Assembly: GCF_009731355.2 (NCBI RefSeq)
Contig: NZ_AP022810.1
Coordinates: 1,578,001 to 1,642,000 of the forward strand
Length of the DNA: 64,000 nucleotides
Direction of reading: 5' to 3'
Source of the DNA: Desulfuromonas sp. AOP6
GTDB lineage: Bacteria > Desulfobacterota > Desulfuromonadia > Desulfuromonadales > SZUA-540
Position 1 is the stretch's first letter. Each line of letters opens with the position of its first letter. The position numbers and the translations under genes were made by a program. The notes beneath the pieces were generated by a model. That model searched no databases and was not told the DNA's origin. It saw only the letters and a program-made list of their open reading frames with translations. Of this stretch, positions 31,270 through 42,373 are shown piece by piece.

Positions 31270-32474
31270 CGCGATGCCGCTCAAAACCGGAAAAACGTCT
31301 GCTTGTAACCGGAGCCACGGGTTTCATCGGCAGCCATCTTGCCGGCGCACTGGCGGAAGCAGGGCACTCGGTCTTTCTGTTGATCCGCGCTTTAAACGCG
31401 GAAGGCACCACAGCGTATGATCGCTGGAATCGGATTGCGGACTGGCTCGGGCTTTCCCCGGCCGCGCGTGCGCGCATTAAGGTTTTCGTCGGTAATCTGG
31501 ATGATCCCGACCTGAACCTGTCTTTGGATGATGCCCGCTTCCTGAAGGCCAACATAGAGGAAATTGTTCATGCTGCAGGCAGTACGTCTTTCTCTGAAAA
31601 AAAACGCAACGAAATATTTCAAACCAATCTCATCGGACTCAAAAATATCCTTTCATTCGTGGACCGAGGTATCTGCCGCCACATTCATGCCATCAGTACG
31701 GCCTATGTAGGGGAGGGGACCCAGACCCCCTGCAGGGAGTGCATCTCTCCTGCTCACGATTTTTTCAATCCCTACGAAGAGTCCAAGCACCAGGCGGAAA
31801 TTCTGCTTCGGGAATTCTGCAACCGCAAGGGCTTGCGTCTTTCTATCTATCGTCCTTCAGTCGTTTACGGGAACTCCCTCACAGGCAGGACCTTTAGGTT
31901 CAACGCCCTTTATCACCCTGTTCGTTCCATCGCCTACCTCCGTGACCTATTCAAGAAGGATCTCCTGGAAAACGCGGGCACACAGGCGAGGAAGATGGGT
32001 ATCTCACTGGATTCCACCACCCAAACGCTTCACATGCCTATTCATTTCCAGAAACGGCAGGGAACGGGTGTGAACCTAATCCCGATTGATTATTGTACCG
32101 ATGCCATTCTTGAACTTATGAATGTTACCGAAAAAGAAGGAATTTTTCACATCGTCAATACGCAGAACACCCCACTTACTGACCTGGTTTCATTTGCTGG
32201 AAGATTCCTCAAGGTATCGGGGATGGGTGTTGATGGTGTCTCAGCGCAACAGGCACAGCAAGACCCAACGTCAGGTGCTTTAGATCATCTTTTCCTGCGT
32301 TACATGGAAGCCTATCAGCCTTATATCGAAGATACGCGGATATTTGATGACAGCCGGGCTGCGCGTACTCTGTCGCCAGCAGGAATCCGCTGTCCGAAAT
32401 TTTCCTATGCAATTTTTGAGCAGTGCATGACGTACGCGGTGGAAAGCAACTGGGGGCGAACGCTGGGGCTGTGA
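31266..32474 (+). CDS. Extended SDR, thioester reductase/fatty acyl reductase-like
   Basis: A 402-residue NAD(P)-dependent extended short-chain dehydrogenase of the NAD_binding_4 type found in fatty acyl-CoA reductases and carboxylate reductase R-domains. The cofactor motif is VTGATGFIGSHLA near residue 15; the catalytic pair is in NPYEESK (Y-x3-K), with STAYVG before it. ATG 31266 overlaps the preceding TGA, so translation is coupled to the FAD oxidoreductase; this start is preferred over the longer frame from 31206. The pair may act on one lipid-like or acyl substrate; that is inference. The following 180 bases hold only a short open frame. Confidence 0.78.
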   Translation: MTRCRSKPEKRLLVTGATGFIGSHLAGALAEAGHSVFLLIRALNAEGTTAYDRWNRIADWLGLSPAARARIKVFVGNLDDPDLNLSLDDARFLKANIEEIVHAAGSTSFSEKKRNEIFQTNLIGLKNILSFVDRGICRHIHAISTAYVGEGTQTPCRECISPAHDFFNPYEESKHQAEILLREFCNRKGLRLSIYRPSVVYGNSLTGRTFRFNALYHPVRSIAYLRDLFKKDLLENAGTQARKMGISLDSTTQTLHMPIHFQKRQGTGVNLIPIDYCTDAILELMNVTEKEGIFHIVNTQNTPLTDLVSFAGRFLKVSGMGVDGVSAQQAQQDPTSGALDHLFLRYMEAYQPYIEDTRIFDDSRAARTLSPAGIRCPKFSYAIFEQCMTYAVESNWGRTLGL

Positions 32475-32566
32475 ATATTCACTGTCCCTCTGTTTACTTA
32501 TCCGAAAGATGTCAATCCAGCTAAGGGAAGGGAAGGGAAGGTCAAATTCTTGTTCTACGGAGTTAA

Positions 32567-32650
32567 ATGCAAATGAAAACTAAGAGTGTTGCAAAGGCTT
32601 TATTACTCGAAGATGTTGGTGAAACTTTTTGCACCCAGGTGATGGAATAG
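32567..32650 (+). CDS. Candidate 27-residue small ORF before the TVP38 gene
   Basis: ATG 32567 is preceded by GGAG with 4-base spacing and the frame ends with TAG at 32648-32650, three bases before the TVP38 start. The peptide (MQMKTKSVAKALLLEDVGET and seven more) is charged at the N-terminus. It might be a small coupled protein, a leader peptide or the beginning of a decayed gene. An alternative start is ATG 32573. Upstream at 32523-32540 is a GGGAA triplicate repeat. Confidence 0.35.
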   Translation: MQMKTKSVAKALLLEDVGETFCTQVME

Positions 32651-32653
32651 ACC

Positions 32654-33394
32654 ATGCTTAAGCGTTTCAGCATCCGCATGAAGTCACCACTATGGAGCGT
32701 TGCAGCCAGTATTCTGTTCGTCGCTGCGCTACTCGCCGTACTGATTTACTTCGACGCCCATGAACAGGTGTTGCGCCTGCTGGAATGGTTCGACACACTG
32801 GGCGCCTGGGCGCCGCTCCTGGTCATCCTGATCATGGCGGTAGTGGTACTGCTGGTCTTTCCAGGAGTGCTGTTCACCACCGGTGCTGGTTTCGTGTTCG
32901 GCGTCGTCGAAGGTTCCCTTGTTGTCGTGCTGGGAACGACCCTCGGGGCGACTCTGGCATTCCTGATCGCTCGCCATCTGTTTGGTCAGCGCGCCAAGGC
33001 ATTTGTCATGTCCCGCGCCAAGCTGCAGGTGGTGAGTGAGGAACTGACGCCCCACGGCTGGAAGATCGTATTGCTGACGCGACTGATCCCATTCTTTCCC
33101 AGCAAAATCTCCAACTATTTTTTCGGTCTGACATCTTTCTCCTTGCGAGGTTTCGTCGTCGGATCGCTGCTGGGTTTCATCCCTTACTCAGTTCACAATG
33201 TCTACCTCGGCTCGATCGCTGCCGACATTACCACTCTTGGTGCGCGCAATCTGGACCGGACTCCGCTGCAATGGGCCCTTTATGGCGTCGGTTTCATTGC
33301 CGCTGTAGTCGCGGTCATCTTTTTGAACCGGCTCGCACGTCGCGCGCTGTCCCGCTATACAGATACCGGCGCCATTAAGGAAAAACCACCGTGA
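32654..33394 (+). CDS. TVP38/TMEM64 (DedA-like) membrane protein
   Basis: A 246-residue inner membrane protein of the SNARE-associated (VTT) domain family. The domain core runs from about residue 70 to 190, with FPGVLFTTGAGFVFG, LGATLAFLIARHLFG and the RLIPFFPSKISNYFFGL motif; transmembrane segments occur at both ends. Relatives include DedA and mammalian VMP1/TMEM41B, which are lipid scramblases or transporters. The stop overlaps the next gene (GTGA), marking a four-gene operon for lipid or glycan handling. RBS is weak and translation may be coupled to the small ORF before it. Confidence 0.88.
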   Translation: MLKRFSIRMKSPLWSVAASILFVAALLAVLIYFDAHEQVLRLLEWFDTLGAWAPLLVILIMAVVVLLVFPGVLFTTGAGFVFGVVEGSLVVVLGTTLGATLAFLIARHLFGQRAKAFVMSRAKLQVVSEELTPHGWKIVLLTRLIPFFPSKISNYFFGLTSFSLRGFVVGSLLGFIPYSVHNVYLGSIAADITTLGARNLDRTPLQWALYGVGFIAAVVAVIFLNRLARRALSRYTDTGAIKEKPP

Positions 33395-35637
33395 TTTGGA
33401 TGAAATGGCTACCCTGGCGGTTCGTCATCCGGCGAATCGCACGACAGAAGGGATTCCTTGATCCCATCGCCCTGCTGGCGCGGTTGCACAGTTTTGCCCA
33501 GCCGTCTGAAGTGGGAGAACCGATCGAACTGCTGCGAGCCGGCGTGGTGTTTCACGCCCGCGGCCTGATCAACAGCCGGGTTATTCAGCATAACCTGGAC
33601 TGGGTATGGCCCTACTGGATTGAACGTCAGTTCGACCCGAGGGACATCTCCTTTATCCCACGCGCCTTCTCGATCACCCATATCAATCTCACCCACCGCA
33701 ACTGGACGGCAATCGGTTATCCTGACTGCGAAGAGCTGCCGATTGTCGATCCCCGTGGTCTGCTCACCCCTTTTCTCGATGGCGGGTCATTGCAAAGTTG
33801 GCTGCAGACCGAGGATGGCCGCTGCCTGCTGCCTTCCCGCGCCGCCGAATTCAATCAGCGACAGGAGATGGACGACGGGGTTCGTATCACCTCCGAGACT
33901 GCCATGCAGGGGTTGTCCCTGACCAGCAGCGCCTGGGTGCAACTCGAGTCGGGAGTTCCGGTCTGCAAACTGCATTTAAAGGCCAGGGCCGACGCCAACG
34001 CCTGGCTGGTGCTGGCGCTGCGCCCTTACAACCCGGAAGGCATCAGTTTCATTCATCAGGTTCAGCTATCCAGTGAACGCACGGCTTGGACAGTCGACCA
34101 GTCATACCGGGTCGATTTCAGCTGTGCCGCCCGACGTCACCATGTCTCTGATTATCGCAACGGCGACGTGTACATTCATCTCCATGACCGCGATGACCAG
34201 ACCGAGGGTAGTTGTGACGTGGGCATGGTCACCGCGGCGGCCCTTTTTCCGATCAAAGCCGGCAAGCCGGCTGAAATGACCGCCACCATTTCGCTCGCGG
34301 CCACAGGGTCCAAACGGCTCCCCTCTGATGCCTGGAGCACCGTGCATCGCGATCATTGCAAACTCACCTGTCCGGAGCCGCTCTATCAGTTTCTCTACGA
34401 CGCCGCCATCACCTCATTGATTCTGCACTCGCCGGATGACGTCTATCCTGGCCCATTCACCTACAAGCGGTTCTGGTTCCGCGATGCCGCTTTCATTATC
34501 CATGCACTCCTGTGCGTCGGCCTGACTGAACGCGCCGAACGCGCCCTGGCGCGCTTCCCGGAGCGGCAGACGGCGCTCGGTTATTTCCGCTCACAGGAAG
34601 GCGAATGGGATTCCAACGGTCAGGTGTTATGGATTCTACAGCGCTTCCTCGCGTTGACGGGTCGACCGTTTCCCTCCGACTGGCAGGCACCTGCGCAGCG
34701 TGGTGCCCGCTGGATCATCCGCAAGCGACTCGCCGATGATCTGGGCACCCCCCATGCCGGCCTGTTGCCGGCCGGTTTCAGCGCCGAGCATCTGGGCCCC
34801 AACGATTATTACTATTGGGATGACTTCTGGGGAATCGCCGGTCTGCGGGCGGCGGCGGCCATGTTCCAGGAACAGGATCCCGTTCAAAGCAAAGAATTTG
34901 CCCAGGCCGCTGATAACTTCACGGGGGCCGTGGACCAAAGTCTGGAGGCCTGCGCGAAGCGGCTTGGCCGTCCGGGCATGCCCGCGTCACCCTACCGACG
35001 GCTGGATGCCGGCGCGATCGGATCACTGGCGCTAGGTTATCCGGTACAACTCTGCTCTTCGGACGATCCACGGCTCCTTGATACGGTCGAGTTTCTGCTC
35101 AGGAACTGTTTTGTGAAGGGGGCGTTTTATCAGGATATGATCCATTCAGGTCTTAACGCCTACCTGACCCTGCATATTGCGCAGGTATTGTTACGCGCTG
35201 GCGACCCACGTCACCTCGACGTGATGGATGCCGTCGCCGCCCTCGCTTCACCGACAGGCCAGTGGCCGGAAGCGATCCATCCGCATACCGGCGGCGGCTG
35301 TATGGGAGACGGTCATCATGTCTGGGCCGCTGCCGAGTGGGCGCTGATGATCCGCAACTGTTTCGTGCGCGAGGAGGGCGACCGGCTCATCCTGTGCGCC
35401 GGTATTCCAGCACGTTGGCTTAAACAGAACGCGCCGATCCGGTTCGGACCGGCACCGACAAGTTTTGGGGCGGTATCCCTTAGCATCACCCCGCAGACTG
35501 GCCGCCCGCCGCGCGTCGCTTGGCAAGGTGATTGGCATCGTCAGGCACCACCTATCGAGATCCGCCTGTCTGGTTTTGAACCGGTCAGCACTACCGAAGG
35601 AACGGGCTCAATTGACCTCATCGGAAAGGAATCTTGA
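33391..35637 (+). CDS. Unknown protein with six-hairpin glycosidase-like domain
   Basis: A 748-residue soluble protein, not recognised at family level. Residues about 330-690 look like an (alpha/alpha)6 glycosidase barrel: YKRFWFRDAAFIIHALL resembles the Y/F-x2-W-RD segment of glucoamylase and debranching-type enzymes; WDSNGQVLWILQRFLALTG, YYYWDDFWGIAGL and GGGCMGDGHHVWAAAEW follow with acidic candidates for catalysis. The first 330 residues are beta-rich and may bind carbohydrate. No signal peptide is seen. GTG 33391 has AAGGA eight bases upstream and overlaps the TVP38 stop. It precedes a glycosyltransferase gene by 3 bases, so a glycan substrate is plausible. Confidence 0.75.
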   Translation: MIWMKWLPWRFVIRRIARQKGFLDPIALLARLHSFAQPSEVGEPIELLRAGVVFHARGLINSRVIQHNLDWVWPYWIERQFDPRDISFIPRAFSITHINLTHRNWTAIGYPDCEELPIVDPRGLLTPFLDGGSLQSWLQTEDGRCLLPSRAAEFNQRQEMDDGVRITSETAMQGLSLTSSAWVQLESGVPVCKLHLKARADANAWLVLALRPYNPEGISFIHQVQLSSERTAWTVDQSYRVDFSCAARRHHVSDYRNGDVYIHLHDRDDQTEGSCDVGMVTAAALFPIKAGKPAEMTATISLAATGSKRLPSDAWSTVHRDHCKLTCPEPLYQFLYDAAITSLILHSPDDVYPGPFTYKRFWFRDAAFIIHALLCVGLTERAERALARFPERQTALGYFRSQEGEWDSNGQVLWILQRFLALTGRPFPSDWQAPAQRGARWIIRKRLADDLGTPHAGLLPAGFSAEHLGPNDYYYWDDFWGIAGLRAAAAMFQEQDPVQSKEFAQAADNFTGAVDQSLEACAKRLGRPGMPASPYRRLDAGAIGSLALGYPVQLCSSDDPRLLDTVEFLLRNCFVKGAFYQDMIHSGLNAYLTLHIAQVLLRAGDPRHLDVMDAVAALASPTGQWPEAIHPHTGGGCMGDGHHVWAAAEWALMIRNCFVREEGDRLILCAGIPARWLKQNAPIRFGPAPTSFGAVSLSITPQTGRPPRVAWQGDWHRQAPPIEIRLSGFEPVSTTEGTGSIDLIGKES

Positions 35638-35640
35638 CGG

Positions 35641-36927
35641 ATGAACATCCTCATACTGACGAACACCTTCACCCCGCACGTCGGCGGCGTGGCGCGATCG
35701 GTGGAAGCGTTCACTGCGGAATACCGCAAGCGTGGACATCGGGTACTGATCGTCGCCCCGGAGTTTCCCGGCATGCCCCAGGACGAAATCGATGTCGTAC
35801 GAATCCCCGCCATCCAGAATTTCAACGCCAGTGATTTTTCAGTCGCACTGCCTGTCCATCCGCAGCTCAGCGAGAGGATTGATGCTTTTGACCCTGACGT
35901 TGTACATTCTCAACACCCCTTCCTGCTCGGTAACACAGCGCTTCGCCTGGCCCGCCACCGGGAACTGCCGCTGGTTTTCACCCATCACACCCTGTATGAG
36001 CAATATACGCATTATGTCCCTGGTGACTCTCCGGCCCTGAAACGTTTTACGATTGAACTTGCCACCCGCTATGCAAACCTCTGCGACCAGGTCTTCGCCC
36101 CCAGCGAAAGCATCCGCGACCTGTTGCTGGACCGTGGCGTCAATAAACCGATTGCCGTGGTGCCCACCGGGGTCTGCCTGGAAAAGTTTGCCCGGGGAGA
36201 TGGCGAGTCCATGCGTAGAGAGCTGGGAATTCCGGTGGATGCTTTCGTTGTCGGTCATCTAGGACGCCTGGCGCCTGAGAAGAACCTGGAATTTCTGACC
36301 CGGGCGGTTGTTGATTTCATCAACCGCAACAGACGGGCTTATTTTCTGGTGGTCGGGACTGGTCCGTCCGAAGACGCCATACGGGAGGCCTTTTTCAGCT
36401 CCGGCATGGAAGCGCATTTGCACATTGCCGGCGTTCTGCAGCAGCAACAGCTGACCGACGCCCTGCACGCCATGGATCTGTTCGCCTTCGCCTCGAGGAG
36501 CGAAACCCAGGGCATGGTACTCACGGAAGCCATGGCGGCCGGTCTGCCGGTCGTTGCCCTCGATGCGCCCGGTGCCCGCGAAGTGGTCAGAGACAGTCAG
36601 AATGGACGTCTACTATCGGAGGAAACAGTCACGGTATTCAGCGCCGCTCTTCAGTGGGTGCTCGAACAACCTCCGGAGAAACTGCAGGCCCTCAAGCAAG
36701 CTGCCCTTGCCACAGCCGAGGCCTTTTCCATGCCCAACTCTGCCGATAAAGCCCTGGCCTGTTATGAATCCCTTAAATCCAGGTCAATCACTGACGCAGA
36801 CCGAGACGAATTGGGCTGGGAGGAGATCATGAAATTCATTAAAACAGAGTGGGATGTCCTGAAAAGTGTGGCCGTAGCGAGCGAAGCAGCCATGGGAACC
36901 AAGCTGTTTTCCGAAAAGGATGAATGA
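35641..36927 (+). CDS. GT4-family glycosyltransferase
   Basis: A 428-residue GT-B fold enzyme of family GT4. The N-terminal part opens MNILILTNTFTPHVGGV with the glycine-rich acceptor loop; the donor site has the RLAPEKNLEFLTRA lysine and the E-x7-E motif in SETQGMVLTEAMAAGLP. The sequence style recalls diacylglycerol alpha-glucosyltransferases. A C-terminal extension of about 45 residues (after residue 380) is charged and ends with KLFSEKDE. Start ATG 35641 lies 3 bases after the glycosidase-like gene stop; its own stop overlaps the next start. It probably transfers hexose to a membrane lipid or polysaccharide. Confidence 0.9.
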   Translation: MNILILTNTFTPHVGGVARSVEAFTAEYRKRGHRVLIVAPEFPGMPQDEIDVVRIPAIQNFNASDFSVALPVHPQLSERIDAFDPDVVHSQHPFLLGNTALRLARHRELPLVFTHHTLYEQYTHYVPGDSPALKRFTIELATRYANLCDQVFAPSESIRDLLLDRGVNKPIAVVPTGVCLEKFARGDGESMRRELGIPVDAFVVGHLGRLAPEKNLEFLTRAVVDFINRNRRAYFLVVGTGPSEDAIREAFFSSGMEAHLHIAGVLQQQQLTDALHAMDLFAFASRSETQGMVLTEAMAAGLPVVALDAPGAREVVRDSQNGRLLSEETVTVFSAALQWVLEQPPEKLQALKQAALATAEAFSMPNSADKALACYESLKSRSITDADRDELGWEEIMKFIKTEWDVLKSVAVASEAAMGTKLFSEKDE

Positions 36928-39341
36928 TGGTCGGTCGAGTTGAGAATTTGCTCCGGCGCCTGCGCCGGAACCTCAGCCGCAGTGTCTGGCTGGCGCGGCT
37001 GTTGCGGTTGCCGGTTTCGGAGGGGGCACCAACGCGACCGGGGCTGATCATGATTCAGATCGATGGATTTTCTCAACCACAGTTAGAACGCGCCCTGGAT
37101 CGCGGCGAGCTGCCTTTTTTACGGCGACTGATCCAGCGTGAACACTACCAGGTTCATGCCCACTATTCCGGCTTGCCGTCGACGACACCCGCGGTTCAGG
37201 CTGAACTTTTTTATGGCGTCAAAGGTGCGGTCCCCGCATTCTCTTTCAGGGACCATAAAACGCGCCAAATCGTGCGGATGTACGAGCCGGACGCCGCGGC
37301 AGGTGTGGAGGCGCTGCATACAAGCGATGGGATTGAGGCGCTGCTCAAGGGAGGCAGCGCCTACGCGGACATTTATACCGGCGGCGCCGCCGAAACCCAT
37401 TTCTGTCCGTCCTCGATGGGTTGGGGACCGACTTTGCGCGCCGCCAATCCGCTGGTGATCTTGACCTTTCTGCTCGTCAATATCACCAGCTTTCTACGCG
37501 TCGGGGTCCTGTTTCTGCTCGAGTGGGGCCTGTCGTTTATTGATTTTGTGCGCGGTCTGGTCAGCGGCCATGATTTCATGAAAGAGTTAAAATTCATTCC
37601 GACACGAGTTGGCATTTCCATCCTGCTGCGTGAACTCTGCGTAATCGGCGGCAAAATCGACATCAGCCGTGGCTTACCCATCATTCATATCAACTTTCTC
37701 GGTTACGACGAACAATCGCATCGCCGTGGGCCGCGTTCGCTCTTTGCCCACTGGACATTGAAGGGAATCGACGACGCCGTTGCTCGCCTGTGGCGCGCCG
37801 CGAACCATTCCGCCTGGCGACATTACGATGTCTGGGTCTACTCCGATCACGGGCAGGCGCGAGTCCGCCCCTACCACCAAGTTCAAGGGTATCCCCTGGG
37901 AGAGGCCGTGAGGGCAGCTTTTGGGGTATTGAACGCAAGCACCCCGGAAATTGACTCGGAAGGCGCGAGCAGTGTGCAGACACAGCGGGTTCGTTTTCTT
38001 GGCGGCAACAAGATACAGCGGCTGTTCTCGGTCCTTGGTATCCACGGTGATGAGTCTGACGAGCAGGAACCGGCCGTCACGGCTCTCGGACCCGTAGCCC
38101 ACGTTTACACACCGCGAAAACTGACTGGTGATGAAAGCGCTTTGGTCGCACGCGAACTGGCGCGCACGCATAAGGTTCCGCTTGTGCTCACGATGGAGGC
38201 TCCGGGCAGGTGGTGTGCCCGCGCCGAAGAAGCCGAATACCGCTTTCCGCAAGATTGTGAGGCGTTGTTCGGAGCGAAGCATCCATTCATCGATTCGCTT
38301 GGCGAAGACCTGTTGCGACTATGCGAGCACCCGGATGCCGGCGACTTTGTCCTGCTTGGGTGGCGCGAAGGTATCACACCGATCACCTTCGCCGAAGAGA
38401 ACGGTGGCCACGCCGGCGCAACGCCCGAAGAGACCAATGGGTTTGCATTGCTGCCGATCGACGCTCCCTTGGCTGAACGTCAACATGCCTATCTGCGTCC
38501 CACCGATCTTCGCAAGGCGGCGTTCCAGCATCTGCAAAAGCCGGAGCGCAAACCTGTCGCAGCACCTGAACTTGGAGTTGCCACGACAACGGACACTCTT
38601 CGTGTCATGACCTACAATGTGCATAGTTGCATAGGCATGGATGGTAAAATCGATGCCGAACGCATCGCCCGGGTGATCGCCCGCGCCAGACCGGACGTGG
38701 TGGCCCTGCAGGAATTGGACGTCGGACGCTCACGCACTGCTGGCATGGACCAGGCCCATCTGATCGCCCACTATCTGGAGATGGAGTTTCATTTCCATCC
38801 CGCCCTGCACATTGAAGAAGAACGCTATGGCGATGCCATCTTGACGCATCTGCCGCAACGCCTGGTAAAGGCTGGCCCGCTACCGGGCCTTGCCGACAAA
38901 CCGCATCTGGAACCGCGTGGGGCACTCTGGGTCGCAATCGAGCTGAACGGCATGGAAATTCAGGTCATCAATACTCATCTGGGACTGCATCCGCGTGAAC
39001 GCATGGAGCAAGTGATGGCTTTGCTCGGCGGTGACTGGCTGGCACACGAACAGTGCCGGGAACCCGTTATTCTGTGCGGCGACTTCAACGCACTGCCTTC
39101 ATCGGCTGTGTGCCGCCGACTCGCCGGGCGCCTCAAGGACGTACAGATTGAGGCGCCCAGCCACCGCCCCAGAGGCACCTATTCCGGCCGTTTCCCGGCG
39201 GTGCGCATCGACCACATCTTTACAAGCCCAGGGCTTGAAGTAACCGGCATCGAGGTCCCTAGTTCGGAGTTGGCGCGCAGCGCCTCCGATCATCTGCCCC
39301 TGATTGCCGAAATGCGCTATTCAGGTAGTACAATGTTCTGA
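36924..39341 (+). CDS. Two-domain phosphodiesterase: alkaline phosphatase-type plus EEP-type
   Basis: An 805-residue fusion. Residues about 35-340 form an alkaline phosphatase/nucleotide pyrophosphatase-type domain: MIQIDGFS with metal aspartate, LPSTTPAVQAE with threonine nucleophile, NFLGYDEQSHRRG and YSDHGQ. Hydrophobic segments near 175-200 suggest membrane contact. Residues about 555-800 form an endonuclease/exonuclease/phosphatase domain with MTYNVH, VVALQELD, INTHLGLHP, LCGDFNALPSS and the terminal SDHLPL. EEP enzymes include sphingomyelinase-like phosphodiesterases. Start is ATG 36924 or 36927 (AAGGA at 36916). As last gene of the TVP38-glycosidase-GT4 operon, phospholipid or glycerophosphodiester cleavage is a plausible role. 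Confidence 0.85.
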   Translation: MMVGRVENLLRRLRRNLSRSVWLARLLRLPVSEGAPTRPGLIMIQIDGFSQPQLERALDRGELPFLRRLIQREHYQVHAHYSGLPSTTPAVQAELFYGVKGAVPAFSFRDHKTRQIVRMYEPDAAAGVEALHTSDGIEALLKGGSAYADIYTGGAAETHFCPSSMGWGPTLRAANPLVILTFLLVNITSFLRVGVLFLLEWGLSFIDFVRGLVSGHDFMKELKFIPTRVGISILLRELCVIGGKIDISRGLPIIHINFLGYDEQSHRRGPRSLFAHWTLKGIDDAVARLWRAANHSAWRHYDVWVYSDHGQARVRPYHQVQGYPLGEAVRAAFGVLNASTPEIDSEGASSVQTQRVRFLGGNKIQRLFSVLGIHGDESDEQEPAVTALGPVAHVYTPRKLTGDESALVARELARTHKVPLVLTMEAPGRWCARAEEAEYRFPQDCEALFGAKHPFIDSLGEDLLRLCEHPDAGDFVLLGWREGITPITFAEENGGHAGATPEETNGFALLPIDAPLAERQHAYLRPTDLRKAAFQHLQKPERKPVAAPELGVATTTDTLRVMTYNVHSCIGMDGKIDAERIARVIARARPDVVALQELDVGRSRTAGMDQAHLIAHYLEMEFHFHPALHIEEERYGDAILTHLPQRLVKAGPLPGLADKPHLEPRGALWVAIELNGMEIQVINTHLGLHPRERMEQVMALLGGDWLAHEQCREPVILCGDFNALPSSAVCRRLAGRLKDVQIEAPSHRPRGTYSGRFPAVRIDHIFTSPGLEVTGIEVPSSELARSASDHLPLIAEMRYSGSTMF

Positions 39342-39530
39342 ACCTTCAATCAGAAGCAACAGTACCCATCACTCGATGTCGATCTGCGCTTATTGCCACC
39401 CAGCAAAAAAATCAGGATTGGGCAGCAAAGACAGATTAAGATTTTTCTCCATATCATGTTATTATTTTTAATCTTTCAGATCCGGTAATTGATGTATAGC
39501 TTTTGGGCTTTGCAGCAAGGAGTTTTTTAT

Positions 39531-41321
39531 ATGAATTATCCCATGTGGTATCTGCCTGAAATCGGCGGAGGGACAATGATCGCTTTGATCGCGATCATTC
39601 ATGTCTTTGTTTCTCATTTTGCTGTTGGCGGCGGTCTTTACCTGGTTCTTGCCGAACGCAAGGGAATCAGGGAACACGATCGGGGTATTCTCGACTTCAC
39701 GAAAAAACACACCAAGTTTTTTCTGCTGGTGACCATGGTTTTCGGCGGGCTGACCGGTGTGGCGATCTGGTTTATCATCTCTCTGGTTCATCCTTCCGCG
39801 ACGTCTTTTCTGATTCACACCTTTGTCTTTGCCTGGGCCACGGAATGGGTCTTTTTCCTGGTGGAAATCGTGGCCCTGTTTATCTACTTTTACACCTTTG
39901 GTCGAATGGATCACCGCAACCACCAGATTATCGGCTGGATTTATTTTGTTGCCGCCTGGATAAGCCTCTTCATCATCAATGGCATTATTGGTTTCATGCT
40001 AACGCCTGGAGGATGGCTTCAGGACGGTGACTTCTGGTCAGGCTTCTTTAATCCGACTTTCTGGCCAGCCCTGTTTTTCCGCACCTTTGTCGCCTTGATG
40101 ATGGCCGGCTCCTATGCTTTCGTAACCACGGCGTTTATCAAGGATGCCACCCTGAAACGCACCATGACGGTTTTTTCTGGTAAATGGGTTCTCGGCGCTC
40201 TGCTGGCAGCACTTCCCAGCGGTATCTGGTATGTTTCCGTACTGCCGCAACCTGCCATGGAACTGGTTAAGGGGGCTTCGCCAACGATTTCCCGAGCCCT
40301 GTCCTATGGAACCTACGCCATCGTCGGCATCCTGATCGTCAGTCTTCTGCTGACCCTGACCAAACCTGCCCGCCATAATGGCATCTATGCCACCGTCGTC
40401 ATGGTTTGCGCCTTTTTGTTCATGGGCTCTTTCGAATGGACGCGGGAGGGGGCCAGACGTCCCTATGTTCTCAACGAAATCATGTATTCCAACAGTATTT
40501 ACAAGAAAGATGTAGAACGTCTGAACACCGAAGGTTTCCTGCAAAACGCCAAATGGGTTCGCATTCAGGAATTTCACGAGGAAAGCTTGCTTGAAATCGG
40601 CCAGGATCTCTTCAAAAACCAATGTTATGCCTGTCACACCATCGGCGGTTTTAATAACGACATTCTTCCGCGCACAGCGAACATGAGCTTCCCCGTTCTG
40701 GTCAATTATCTGGAAACCATTCACGATCGACGCTATTTCATGCCCCCCTTTGCCGGAACGTCTGACGAGCTGAGGGCTTTGGCGACTTATATCTATAGCG
40801 GTCTGCAGGGCAAATCGATGGCATCGGCAGTTCTGGTGACGGGAGGTGTCGCTGAGATGAGTCCCGGTGAGCAACTATTTGCTGACAATTGCGTATTCTG
40901 CCATGAGGCGGAGCTGATCAAAACCAAGACGATCGGCTGGTCGCGGGATAAAATCCGCCTGGGCATGGATAACCTGAGTGGCCTCAATCCGGCGATGCCT
41001 GACTTCAATGGCTCGGAGTTGGAGAAAGAGCATTTGAGTGATTTCATCCTGGCGCTGCATTCGCCTGAATCGAAAGTTATGGGAACGCCACACCATCTGG
41101 GTGAATCCGTCTTCGAGACGCACTGTTCCATGTGCCACAGCCTGACAGCAGACTACAATCCTCTGCTACCAAAAATTGAAGGTTGGGATCGAATGCGCCT
41201 GCGCCAGGCCCTCGACCAACTCGATGCCCTGAATCCGGCCATGCCGCCGCTGCAGGCGAGTGACGAGGAAAAGGACGCCTTGGCCGACTATCTTATGGAA
41301 GAATCCCGGGAGGTTATGTGA
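39531..41321 (+). CDS. Cytochrome bd-like oxidase large subunit with three c-type haem sites
   Basis: A 596-residue membrane protein. The N-terminal half has about nine helices with CydA-like features: histidines in HVFVSHFAVGG, FGGLTGVAIWF, and two glutamates seven residues apart in a helix (TEWVFFLVE), at the place of the proton-channel glutamates. The quinol-binding Q-loop is not apparent. The C-terminal part is periplasmic with three CxxCH motifs at C365 (CYACH), C454 (CVFCH) and C532 (CSMCH), and PxMPP/PAMP methionines. This fits the c-haem-bearing (OR-C) branch of the bd superfamily, which would take electrons from cytochrome c rather than quinol. ATG 39531 with AAGGAG eight bases upstream is preferred to TTG 39489. 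Confidence 0.83.
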   Translation: MNYPMWYLPEIGGGTMIALIAIIHVFVSHFAVGGGLYLVLAERKGIREHDRGILDFTKKHTKFFLLVTMVFGGLTGVAIWFIISLVHPSATSFLIHTFVFAWATEWVFFLVEIVALFIYFYTFGRMDHRNHQIIGWIYFVAAWISLFIINGIIGFMLTPGGWLQDGDFWSGFFNPTFWPALFFRTFVALMMAGSYAFVTTAFIKDATLKRTMTVFSGKWVLGALLAALPSGIWYVSVLPQPAMELVKGASPTISRALSYGTYAIVGILIVSLLLTLTKPARHNGIYATVVMVCAFLFMGSFEWTREGARRPYVLNEIMYSNSIYKKDVERLNTEGFLQNAKWVRIQEFHEESLLEIGQDLFKNQCYACHTIGGFNNDILPRTANMSFPVLVNYLETIHDRRYFMPPFAGTSDELRALATYIYSGLQGKSMASAVLVTGGVAEMSPGEQLFADNCVFCHEAELIKTKTIGWSRDKIRLGMDNLSGLNPAMPDFNGSELEKEHLSDFILALHSPESKVMGTPHHLGESVFETHCSMCHSLTADYNPLLPKIEGWDRMRLRQALDQLDALNPAMPPLQASDEEKDALADYLMEESREVM

Positions 41322-42373
41322 TGAGCCCACTTATTCCAACACCCGATACACTCCCGGTGGCCTGGGGCTGGTTTCAGTTTTTATTGCTTCTGACCTTGCC
41401 TTTTCACCTGTTGGCCATGAATGCGATGGTCGGTTCCGCCGCGCTCGCGCTCTATGCCCGGTTCCGGGCGGATGAGCCGTCACATCGGCTTGCCCATGAG
41501 TTGGCCAAAATCCTGCCCTTTCTGGTTGCTTTTACGGTAAATTTCGGTGTCGCGCCCCTGTTATTCAACCAGGTTCTGTACGGACATTTTCTTTATGTCA
41601 GTTCCATTCTGATGGCGGTCTTCTGGCTGGCCGTTATTCCTCTCCTTATCCTGGCCTACTATGCCCTGTACCTGTATGATTTTCGCTTTAACTCCCTGGG
41701 TAAGGCAGGGACGGTTTTTCTGGCGATGTCTCTTCTCATCTTTTTTGTCATTGCCTTCATCTATACCAACAACATGACCCTGATGCTGTTACCAACCCAG
41801 TGGGTGGCCTATTTTCAGAACGCCGCCGGGACCCTGCTCAATCTGTCCGATCCCACCCTGATACCGCGCTATCTGCATTTCATGATCGGCGCCCTTGCTG
41901 TTGGAGGCCTCTTTGTTGCCCTATTCGGTAAGTTGAAAGAAAATCGCGACAGGGAAATGGCGGATGCGGTCGTGCGGTTGGGCATGAATGCCTTTACCTG
42001 GCTGACCATGGTGCAGATTCTTTTGGGACTGTGGTTCCTGATGGCTCTGCCCAAAAAGGTGATGCTGATTTTTATGGGAGGCGACACCGTGGCGACTCTC
42101 ATCTTTCTATTGGGCCTGATCCTTGCAATCCTTGTTCTGGTGACGGGGCTCAAGAAAAAAGTCTATCTCACCACCGGCCTTGCTGTTGTTCTGGTGTTTC
42201 TGATGTCTTTTATGCGCGCCTACGTGCGTATGGGTTTCCACGAGCCGTATTTTTCAGTTCGGTCATTAGTCGTCGTGCCGCAGTACTCACCCATGTGGGT
42301 GTTTTTTCTGAGCCTGGTTGCCGGGCTGCTGTGCATCGCCTGGATGGTGAAAAAAGTGGTTGAGATCCGATAA
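41321..42373 (+). CDS. Second subunit of the bd-like oxidase
   Basis: A 350-residue protein with about eight or nine transmembrane helices and little else; it starts at ATG 41321, overlapping the preceding stop, with GGGAGG seven bases upstream. It has repeated histidine, asparagine and methionine positions (FHLLAMNAMVG, HFMIGALAVGG) like the helices of the large subunit, suggesting CydA/CydB-type pseudo-duplication. It carries no CxxCH. Co-translation with the haem-bearing subunit makes it the natural CydB-like or CydA-prime partner. Whether it holds haem b is unknown. Confidence 0.75.
   Translation: MSPLIPTPDTLPVAWGWFQFLLLLTLPFHLLAMNAMVGSAALALYARFRADEPSHRLAHELAKILPFLVAFTVNFGVAPLLFNQVLYGHFLYVSSILMAVFWLAVIPLLILAYYALYLYDFRFNSLGKAGTVFLAMSLLIFFVIAFIYTNNMTLMLLPTQWVAYFQNAAGTLLNLSDPTLIPRYLHFMIGALAVGGLFVALFGKLKENRDREMADAVVRLGMNAFTWLTMVQILLGLWFLMALPKKVMLIFMGGDTVATLIFLLGLILAILVLVTGLKKKVYLTTGLAVVLVFLMSFMRAYVRMGFHEPYFSVRSLVVVPQYSPMWVFFLSLVAGLLCIAWMVKKVVEIR

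Follow-up and report, generated by a model that had tools for sequence, protein, structure and literature searches.

Organization and conservation of the four-gene cassette

The window analysed in this work, i.e. a 64,000-nucleotide stretch of the genome of Desulfuromonas sp. AOP6 (a single contig of 3.27 Mb, NZ_AP022810.1; positions 1,578,001 to 1,642,000), contains at positions 32654-39341 four genes on the + strand, delimited by a check of the open reading frames (ORFs), which form the cassette described here. They encode, in this order, a membrane protein of the VTT type (VTT), a glycosidase-like protein (GHx), a predicted GT4 glycosyltransferase (GT4) and a protein with two predicted phosphodiesterase domains (PDE2) (Table 1). 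A preliminary description of this DNA had listed these protein types, and the ORFs, the Pfam matches and a fold model bear it out; its statement that the four genes overlap tightly holds for the VTT/GHx and GT4/PDE2 junctions (4-bp overlaps, GTGA and ATGA, respectively), whereas GHx and GT4 are only in near contact (3-bp gap).

Table 1. Coordinates of the cassette genes and associated features (window positions unless a locus is named)
Feature	Position	Strand	Basis
VTT, VTT/TVP38-TMEM64-type membrane protein, 246 aa	32654..33394	+	PF09335; hydropathy; placement upstream of GHx
GHx, GH15/GH65-type (alpha/alpha)6 glycosidase-like protein, 748 aa, GTG start	33391..35637	+	predicted structure, fold searches, invariant residues
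GT4, GT4 glycosyltransferase, 428 aa	35641..36927	+	GT4 Pfam domains, NF049988 best match
PDE2, NPP-fold domain (~38-540) fused to EEP domain (~556-799), 805 aa	36924..39341	+	PF01663, PF03372, NPP fold
Intergenic gap 5' of VTT, 179 bp	32475..32653		Pho-box and sigma-70 scans
Two-transmembrane phosphoesterase-like/GT4 fusion	L119 1450-3786	-	homologues in Marinobacter-family genomes

A scan of bacterial genomes for GHx revealed at least 421 encoding loci, and the analysis continued with the 80 best of these; the locus counts given here are skewed toward relatives with at least 60% identity and toward Marinobacter. The preliminary description had proposed to look for the same four-gene order in other genomes, and we found it, with all genes on the same strand, in 33 of the 63 loci with sufficient flanking sequence on both sides. 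These 33 loci span Gammaproteobacteria, Betaproteobacteria and Thermodesulfobacteriota. The remaining arrangements include VTT-GHx alone (23/63, nearly all from Marinobacter and its kin), GHx-GT4-PDE2 lacking VTT (4/63) and loci from which PDE2 is missing (3/63), while VTT lies immediately 5' of GHx in 65 of the 73 loci with enough flank. In three loci (L022, L046 and L050) the NPP part alone is found downstream, and a separate EEP gene is located upstream of VTT. When the proteins are compared pair by pair, the distances for the four genes are strongly correlated (r 0.87-0.95; permutation maxima 0.22-0.41). Because the gene order is kept in 33 of 63 loci and the proteins diverge together, we regard the four genes as a real cassette, the conservation of which is far beyond chance. 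Clustering of all ORFs from 84 loci revealed no additional linked family: only the four cassette genes recur across many unrelated loci. The SDR/thioester-reductase-like gene that ends at position 32474, 179 bp before VTT, is elsewhere unlinked to the cassette and lies outside it. A role as a defence system was rejected, as PADLOC reported no match, and a literature search, conducted chiefly outside subscription journals, returned no paper describing the operon.

Sequence and fold analysis of the encoded proteins

GHx exhibits no match to Pfam or NCBIfam models and no significant match to PDB sequences, even when a 35-sequence profile is used as a query; the best PDB match of this profile is dextran dextrinase (E-value 0.2), and W-D477-D478 is placed on the W-E-D of GH15. 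The AlphaFold model (pLDDT 79, pTM 0.83) comprises a beta-sandwich (residues 130-300), an (alpha/alpha)6 barrel (residues 314-658) and a C-terminal beta domain. Structure searches (Foldseek/VIA) identified members of GH15, GH65 and GH94 as the best matches (dextran dextrinase, Z 26.0 over 518 residues; GH65 alpha-1,2-glucosidase, Z 25.0; bacterial glucoamylase 1lf6, Z 24.4 over 514 residues; glucodextranase 1ug9, Z 23.5 over 519 residues), with bacterial GH116 structures also among the Foldseek matches. According to the model, GHx has the GH15-type architecture, in which the (alpha/alpha)6 barrel is preceded by an N-terminal super-beta-sandwich, and the earlier guess that the 748-residue protein resembles six-hairpin glycosidases is thus backed by both the predicted structure and the fold searches. 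The GH15 family model itself (PF00723) matched neither GHx nor, at the threshold used, any protein of the host genome.

An hhalign comparison of GHx with GH15 proteins of the same class (about 23 of them; probability only 20%) produced a collinear alignment, in which F-W-F-R-D-A-A-F of GHx falls on W-I-R-D-A-A-F and E627 on the region of the GH15 base, while the acid regions do not line up. The W-x-R364-D365 motif, D477/D478 and E627 are invariant in 35 GHx homologues. We propose D477/D478 and E627 as the putative catalytic residues; in the weak profile match to dextran dextrinase an Asp stands in GHx where GH15 enzymes have their catalytic acid Glu. Fungal GH15 enzymes use the W-x-R-D motif to bind glucose at subsite -1, and W-x-R364-D365 is the putative sugar-binding motif of GHx. 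Altogether, GHx shares with GH15 and GH65 enzymes (glucodextranase, bacterial glucoamylase, dextran dextrinase, GH65 glucosidases) the super-beta-sandwich, the (alpha/alpha)6 barrel, the W-x-R-D motif and, as far as the weak alignments indicate, acidic residues at the putative acid/base sites, but it differs from them in the lack of any Pfam GH match, in an identity of ~10-14% over the fold alignments, in the apparent replacement of the GH15 catalytic Glu by Asp and in a conserved N-terminal extension. This extension (~130 residues) is among the most conserved parts of the protein and is not covered by the fold matches; because it is conserved yet poorly modelled, it could well serve in docking or in contact with the membrane. 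No transmembrane segment was predicted from hydropathy. As a GH15-like protein, GHx is probably inverting and alpha-directed. The family is named in none of the libraries searched (Pfam, NCBIfam, PDB), although CAZy or the AlphaFold DB may already list it. Distant plasmid-borne relatives are annotated as "discoidin domain-containing protein", and their neighbours are uninformative.

GT4 is assigned to its family by Pfam matches (Glyco_transf_4, E-value 4e-37, 128 bits against a cut-off of 28.5; Glycos_transf_1, E-value 1e-30, 107 bits against 26.4), with the regions E288-x7-E296 and HHTLYEQYTHY conserved, and its hydropathy profile shows no transmembrane segment. Its best NCBIfam model is NF049988, which describes the alpha-monoglucosyl-diacylglycerol synthases of the Acholeplasma type (full-length match, 137.6 bits against a curated cut-off of 400; next model, 111.7 bits). 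All 27 GT4 homologues match NF049988, with the lowest best E-value among the models. GT4 is thus a probable enzyme of the alpha-glucosyl-diacylglycerol synthase type, as judged from its similarity to this model.

VTT matches PF09335 (VTT_dom; E-value 6e-23, 82 bits against a cut-off of 33.9) and possesses several hydrophobic segments, and we presume it to be a lipid scramblase or translocase; its best NCBIfam match is UptA (31.7 bits against a cut-off of 250).

PDE2 combines an N-terminal match to Phosphodiest (PF01663, E-value 2e-10) with a C-terminal match to Exo_endo_phos (PF03372, E-value 1.5e-26, 94 bits against a cut-off of 24.5). The model of the N-terminal domain (pLDDT 84, pTM 0.87) resembles ENPP5, ENPP6, ENPP7 and the bacterial Xac NPP (Z ~24-25 over ~330 residues); of these, ENPP6 and ENPP7 are lipid phosphodiesterases. 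In 33 sequences, one of them a paralogue with 27% identity, the nucleophile Thr88 and the metal ligands D47, D262, H266, D308, H309 and H496 are invariant, and the domain has, in the predicted structure, all the hallmarks of the NPP family, i.e. the fold, the Thr nucleophile and six metal-binding Asp/His residues. The fold is interrupted by a hydrophobic helical insert (residues ~168-250), which may hold the NPP domain at the membrane. The C-terminal domain, in which N565, E597, H685, D720, N722, D763, D789 and H790 are invariant, is placed by its sequence in the EEP superfamily and shows a weak NCBIfam match to VanJ. The paralogue mentioned above (L113, 7393-9162; near 2.283 Mb of the same genome) is also NPP-like, contains an insert of a similar kind and has counterparts in other genomes of the same taxonomic order; its neighbouring genes gave no functional clue.

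Constant and optional parts, horizontal transfer and loss

Six genomes of the same taxonomic order keep GHx-GT4 and lack a full-length PDE2, with just generic EEP or NPP-like matches elsewhere. The next gene after GHx-GT4 in four of these six is DUF374/LPLAT-like (two of the calls were made by Pfam scans, one above and one just under the cut-off, the others by clustering or by eye). In another of the six, G049, a VTT-like gene (PF09335 below the cut-off) follows GHx-GT4, so that VTT-type genes are attached in two distinct arrangements, 5' of GHx and after GHx-GT4. A macro-domain gene is found immediately 3' of GHx-GT4 in G051 (L107, 11896-12519).

The Marinobacter genomes keep VTT-GHx, but no GT4 lies beside it and nothing in them matches PDE2. 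The best GT4 candidate there belongs to a 779-aa fusion protein, in which a phosphoesterase-like domain lies between two transmembrane segments; the best model of its GT4 half is again the alpha-monoglucosyl-diacylglycerol synthase (210 bits against the cut-off of 400). The fusion gene lies 13-16 kb from GHx in a subset of the Marinobacter-family species. A survey of 121 genomes of this family identified GHx in 49, accompanied by the fusion in 44 and by a GT4 directly beside GHx in the other five. Within this sample GHx never occurs without the fusion or an adjacent GT4, while a GT4 occurs without GHx. The constant part of the system is thus GHx together with a GT4, and PDE2 is dispensable. 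This one-sided pattern suggests that GHx acts downstream, probably on the GT4 product. We also considered the fusion as a dedicated stand-in for GT4-PDE2 (a 41-genome look had given 18/18 against 1/23) and rejected this idea, as the 121-genome survey revealed the fusion in 37 of the 72 genomes without GHx, i.e. as a general gene; what is left is a rule in one direction, GHx always being accompanied by a GT4. Its phosphoesterase-like domain was likewise rejected as a phospholipase C, since the PF00149 match is below the cut-off and the D-x-H, G-D and G-N-H motifs are degenerate (few sequences, inspected by eye).

The sequence comparisons indicate that the cassette moves horizontally, because all four proteins of the window are closest, among the homologues compared, to those of Thiobacillus (L044, 76-81%); the GHx tree also intermixes Thermodesulfobacteriota and Pseudomonadota. 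In the sister species (G001, the sole complete one compared), where the neighbouring SDR protein is 96% identical, the site is a relic: 105 bp of VTT are followed by a PDE2 tail with frameshifts and stops, and GHx and GT4 are gone. The relic (contig C3, locus L133) sits opposite positions 32570-39341 of the window, with an alignment identity of ~95% upstream of the site and ~80% across a longer stretch beyond it. The cassette genes were thus lost jointly in this species. In a genome from another family (G083, contig C23; L140, 5095-9712) VTT, GT4 and PDE2 are intact and 86-89% identical to the window, and GHx is cut to a short remnant, which suggests a recent transfer followed by the loss of GHx. 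A complete bacterial cassette was also found on a contig labelled as a metagenome-assembled genome of a Halobacteria archaeon (L077), probably owing to a binning error.

Beyond the cassette, the gene at positions 39489-41321 encodes a 610-aa protein with a partial match to cytochrome bd subunit I (residues 31-228) and several c-type haem domains, followed by a gene for a 351-aa membrane protein with no Pfam match (41318-42373). As judged from these matches, the two possibly form an unusual bd-like oxidase.

Predicted role in glycolipid synthesis and processing

We tentatively propose, with a confidence somewhat short of even, that this horizontally moving cassette makes and processes alpha-glucosyl glycerolipids at the cytoplasmic face of the inner membrane. 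A single lipid picture is suggested by the agreement between the family fit of GT4, the GH15-like fold of GHx and the partner VTT, and the LPLAT-like and VTT-like genes that follow GHx-GT4 elsewhere add a lipid context. Tethered to the membrane through its hydrophobic insert, the NPP-fold domain of PDE2 would cleave a phosphate-bearing lipid head group to release diacylglycerol, and the EEP domain could hydrolyse the phosphoester set free in this step or else a second lipid. Diacylglycerol would then receive from GT4 a sugar in alpha linkage, most probably glucose. The soluble GHx, as its fold, stereochemistry and dependence on GT4 suggest, would act on the alpha-glucosyl head group, either trimming it and thereby controlling the product level, or transferring glucosyl units, and VTT could move the product between the leaflets. 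PDE2 would serve, where present, to supply diacylglycerol or to remove phosphoesters. GT4 enzymes retain the anomeric configuration and, with an alpha-glucosyl product on one side and GH15/GH65 enzymes acting on alpha-glucosides on the other, the stereochemistry of GT4 and GHx would match. Known GT4 members make alpha-glucosyl-diacylglycerol (PMC8231724). A small operon in which a GT4 enzyme acts on a membrane lipid and is accompanied by a predicted flippase has been described in Pseudomonas aeruginosa (GpgSDF, glucosaminyl (GlcN)-phosphatidylglycerol; PMC12713373). The cassette resembles it in having a GT4 beside a candidate lipid mover, but GpgSDF contains a deacetylase and a YbhN-type flippase instead of GHx and VTT, and our GT4 scores 108.5 bits on that model (cut-off 480).

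Several observations speak against this proposal. GT4 fails to reach the curated cut-off of NF049988, which makes its acceptor uncertain, and the fold relatives of GHx act mostly on soluble glucans, its sequence showing no direct link to lipids. The nucleotide-acting ENPP1 and ENPP3 match the PDE2 N-terminal domain nearly as well (Z ~23) and the NPP fold also covers UDP-sugar phosphodiesterases, so the substrate type (lipid or nucleotide) is not set by the fold. Both VTT and PDE2 are missing beside GHx-GT4 in several genomes of the same taxonomic order, and both are therefore optional. The Marinobacter-family genomes are mostly close kin, so that the 49 of 49 association of GHx with a GT4 is the pattern of one lineage and not a series of independent events. 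Finally, G083 provides an exception to the rule that GHx accompanies a GT4, as it encodes a diverged GHx alone on another contig with no neighbouring GT4, while its cassette copy keeps VTT, GT4 and PDE2 without GHx.

The preliminary description suggested an analogue of the PlcP-Agt system, which swaps phospholipids for glycolipids during phosphate shortage: PDE2 would be a phospholipase C, GT4 would glucosylate the diacylglycerol and the set would be induced at low phosphate. Of this suggestion the glycosylation of lipids finds support in the GT4 model fit, the NPP fold and the VTT partners, while the phosphate-shortage purpose does not, and we consider it rather unlikely as a whole. In its favour, each of the two folds joined in PDE2 has lipid phosphodiesterases among its members, the catalytic residues of PDE2 are intact, and PlcP commonly adjoins a GT4 in marine bacteria (PMC4796936, PMC8231724). 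The PlcP-Agt (PlcP-GTcp) operons of marine bacteria, for which a conversion of phospholipids to glycolipids has been proposed, resemble the cassette in placing a phosphodiesterase gene beside a GT4, which in the cassette fits a diacylglycerol glycosyltransferase model below its cut-off. However, PDE2 consists of an NPP fold and an EEP domain (PF01663, PF03372) and not of the PlcP metallophosphoesterase (PF00149); GHx and VTT are additional, and GHx-GT4 persists without PDE2. To our knowledge, PlcP-Agt operons contain no counterpart of GHx, which the phosphate-shortage explanation leaves unaccounted for. In PlcP gene clusters a metallophosphoesterase is encoded and putative Pho boxes are present (PMC4796936, PMC8231724), whereas the cassette shows neither a Pho-box signal nor an enzyme of this type: upstream of VTT the best sites in 66 loci have on average 4.89 mismatches, compared with 5.12 in shuffled sequences and 6 in the window, although the simple E. 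coli consensus used here is not decisive. Regulation by phosphate finds no support, as an E. coli-type Pho box is barely above the shuffles, and the gap preceding VTT in the window contains no Pho-box-like match and no sigma-70-like site. Nor does a phosphodiesterase with a glycosyltransferase make up the constant core, given that PDE2 is missing both from the six genomes that retain GHx-GT4 and from the Marinobacter genomes with VTT-GHx, where the phosphoesterase-like domain of the fusion matches PF00149 weakly and lacks several metal-ligand motifs.

It is unlikely that the cassette is a soluble-glucan module, in which GT4 and GHx would assemble a cytoplasmic alpha-glucan, or else a solute based on glucose, and trim it, PDE2 would handle nucleotide-sugar or sugar-phosphate by-products and VTT would be incidental. 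Such a role would agree with the fold matches of GHx to glucodextranase, dextran dextrinase, GH65 glucosidases and phosphorylases, with the presence of nucleotide and UDP-sugar phosphodiesterases among NPP-fold enzymes and with the lack of transmembrane segments in GHx and GT4. However, VTT directly precedes GHx in 65 of 73 loci and G049 carries a different VTT-like gene next to GHx-GT4, four genomes have LPLAT-like genes in this place, PDE2 has its hydrophobic helical insert, and GT4 scores only 58.7 bits on glycogen synthase models against 137.6 on the glycolipid synthase model. Even less is to be said for a module working on undecaprenyl- or other polyprenyl-linked glycans, with an UptA-like VTT acting on undecaprenyl phosphate, an EEP domain resembling VanJ-type phosphatases and GT4 and GHx building or editing the glycan, which we regard as improbable: the UptA match of VTT is far under the cut-off and the VanJ match of EEP is weak, no polymerase, ligase, flippase, priming transferase or further glycosyltransferase is linked to the cassette in the clustering of ORFs from 84 loci, and the best model of GT4 is a diacylglycerol enzyme.

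Returning to the alpha-glucosyl glycerolipid cassette, a bolder and rather doubtful extension is that GHx represents a hitherto undescribed family of glycosidases or transglucosidases that would edit these lipids at the cytoplasmic face, carried on a mobile cassette across several phyla and corresponding in role to GBA2. GBA2 (GH116) is described as a non-lysosomal glucosylceramidase (PMC5712312), and on that description the likeness is one of idea only, i.e. an (alpha/alpha)6-type glycosidase acting on a membrane glucolipid; GH116 is a retaining beta-glucosidase, whereas GHx is probably inverting and alpha-directed, and we detected no sequence similarity between them.

Operons of glycolipid synthases are known, but GHx and this four-gene combination are absent from the libraries searched; at least 421 bacterial loci encode GHx, and none of the libraries used has a name for it. 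Marinobacter, Rheinheimera, Arsukibacterium, Thiobacillus and the sulfate and metal reducers may make alpha-glucosyl lipids by a route other than PlcP-Agt, and the cassette suggests that the processing of glycolipid head groups is a genetically encoded step. The cassette is small, present in cultivable strains and movable as one piece. If GHx does act on a glucosyl lipid, the GH15-like fold would gain a new role, and bacterial glycolipid turnover would become directly testable.

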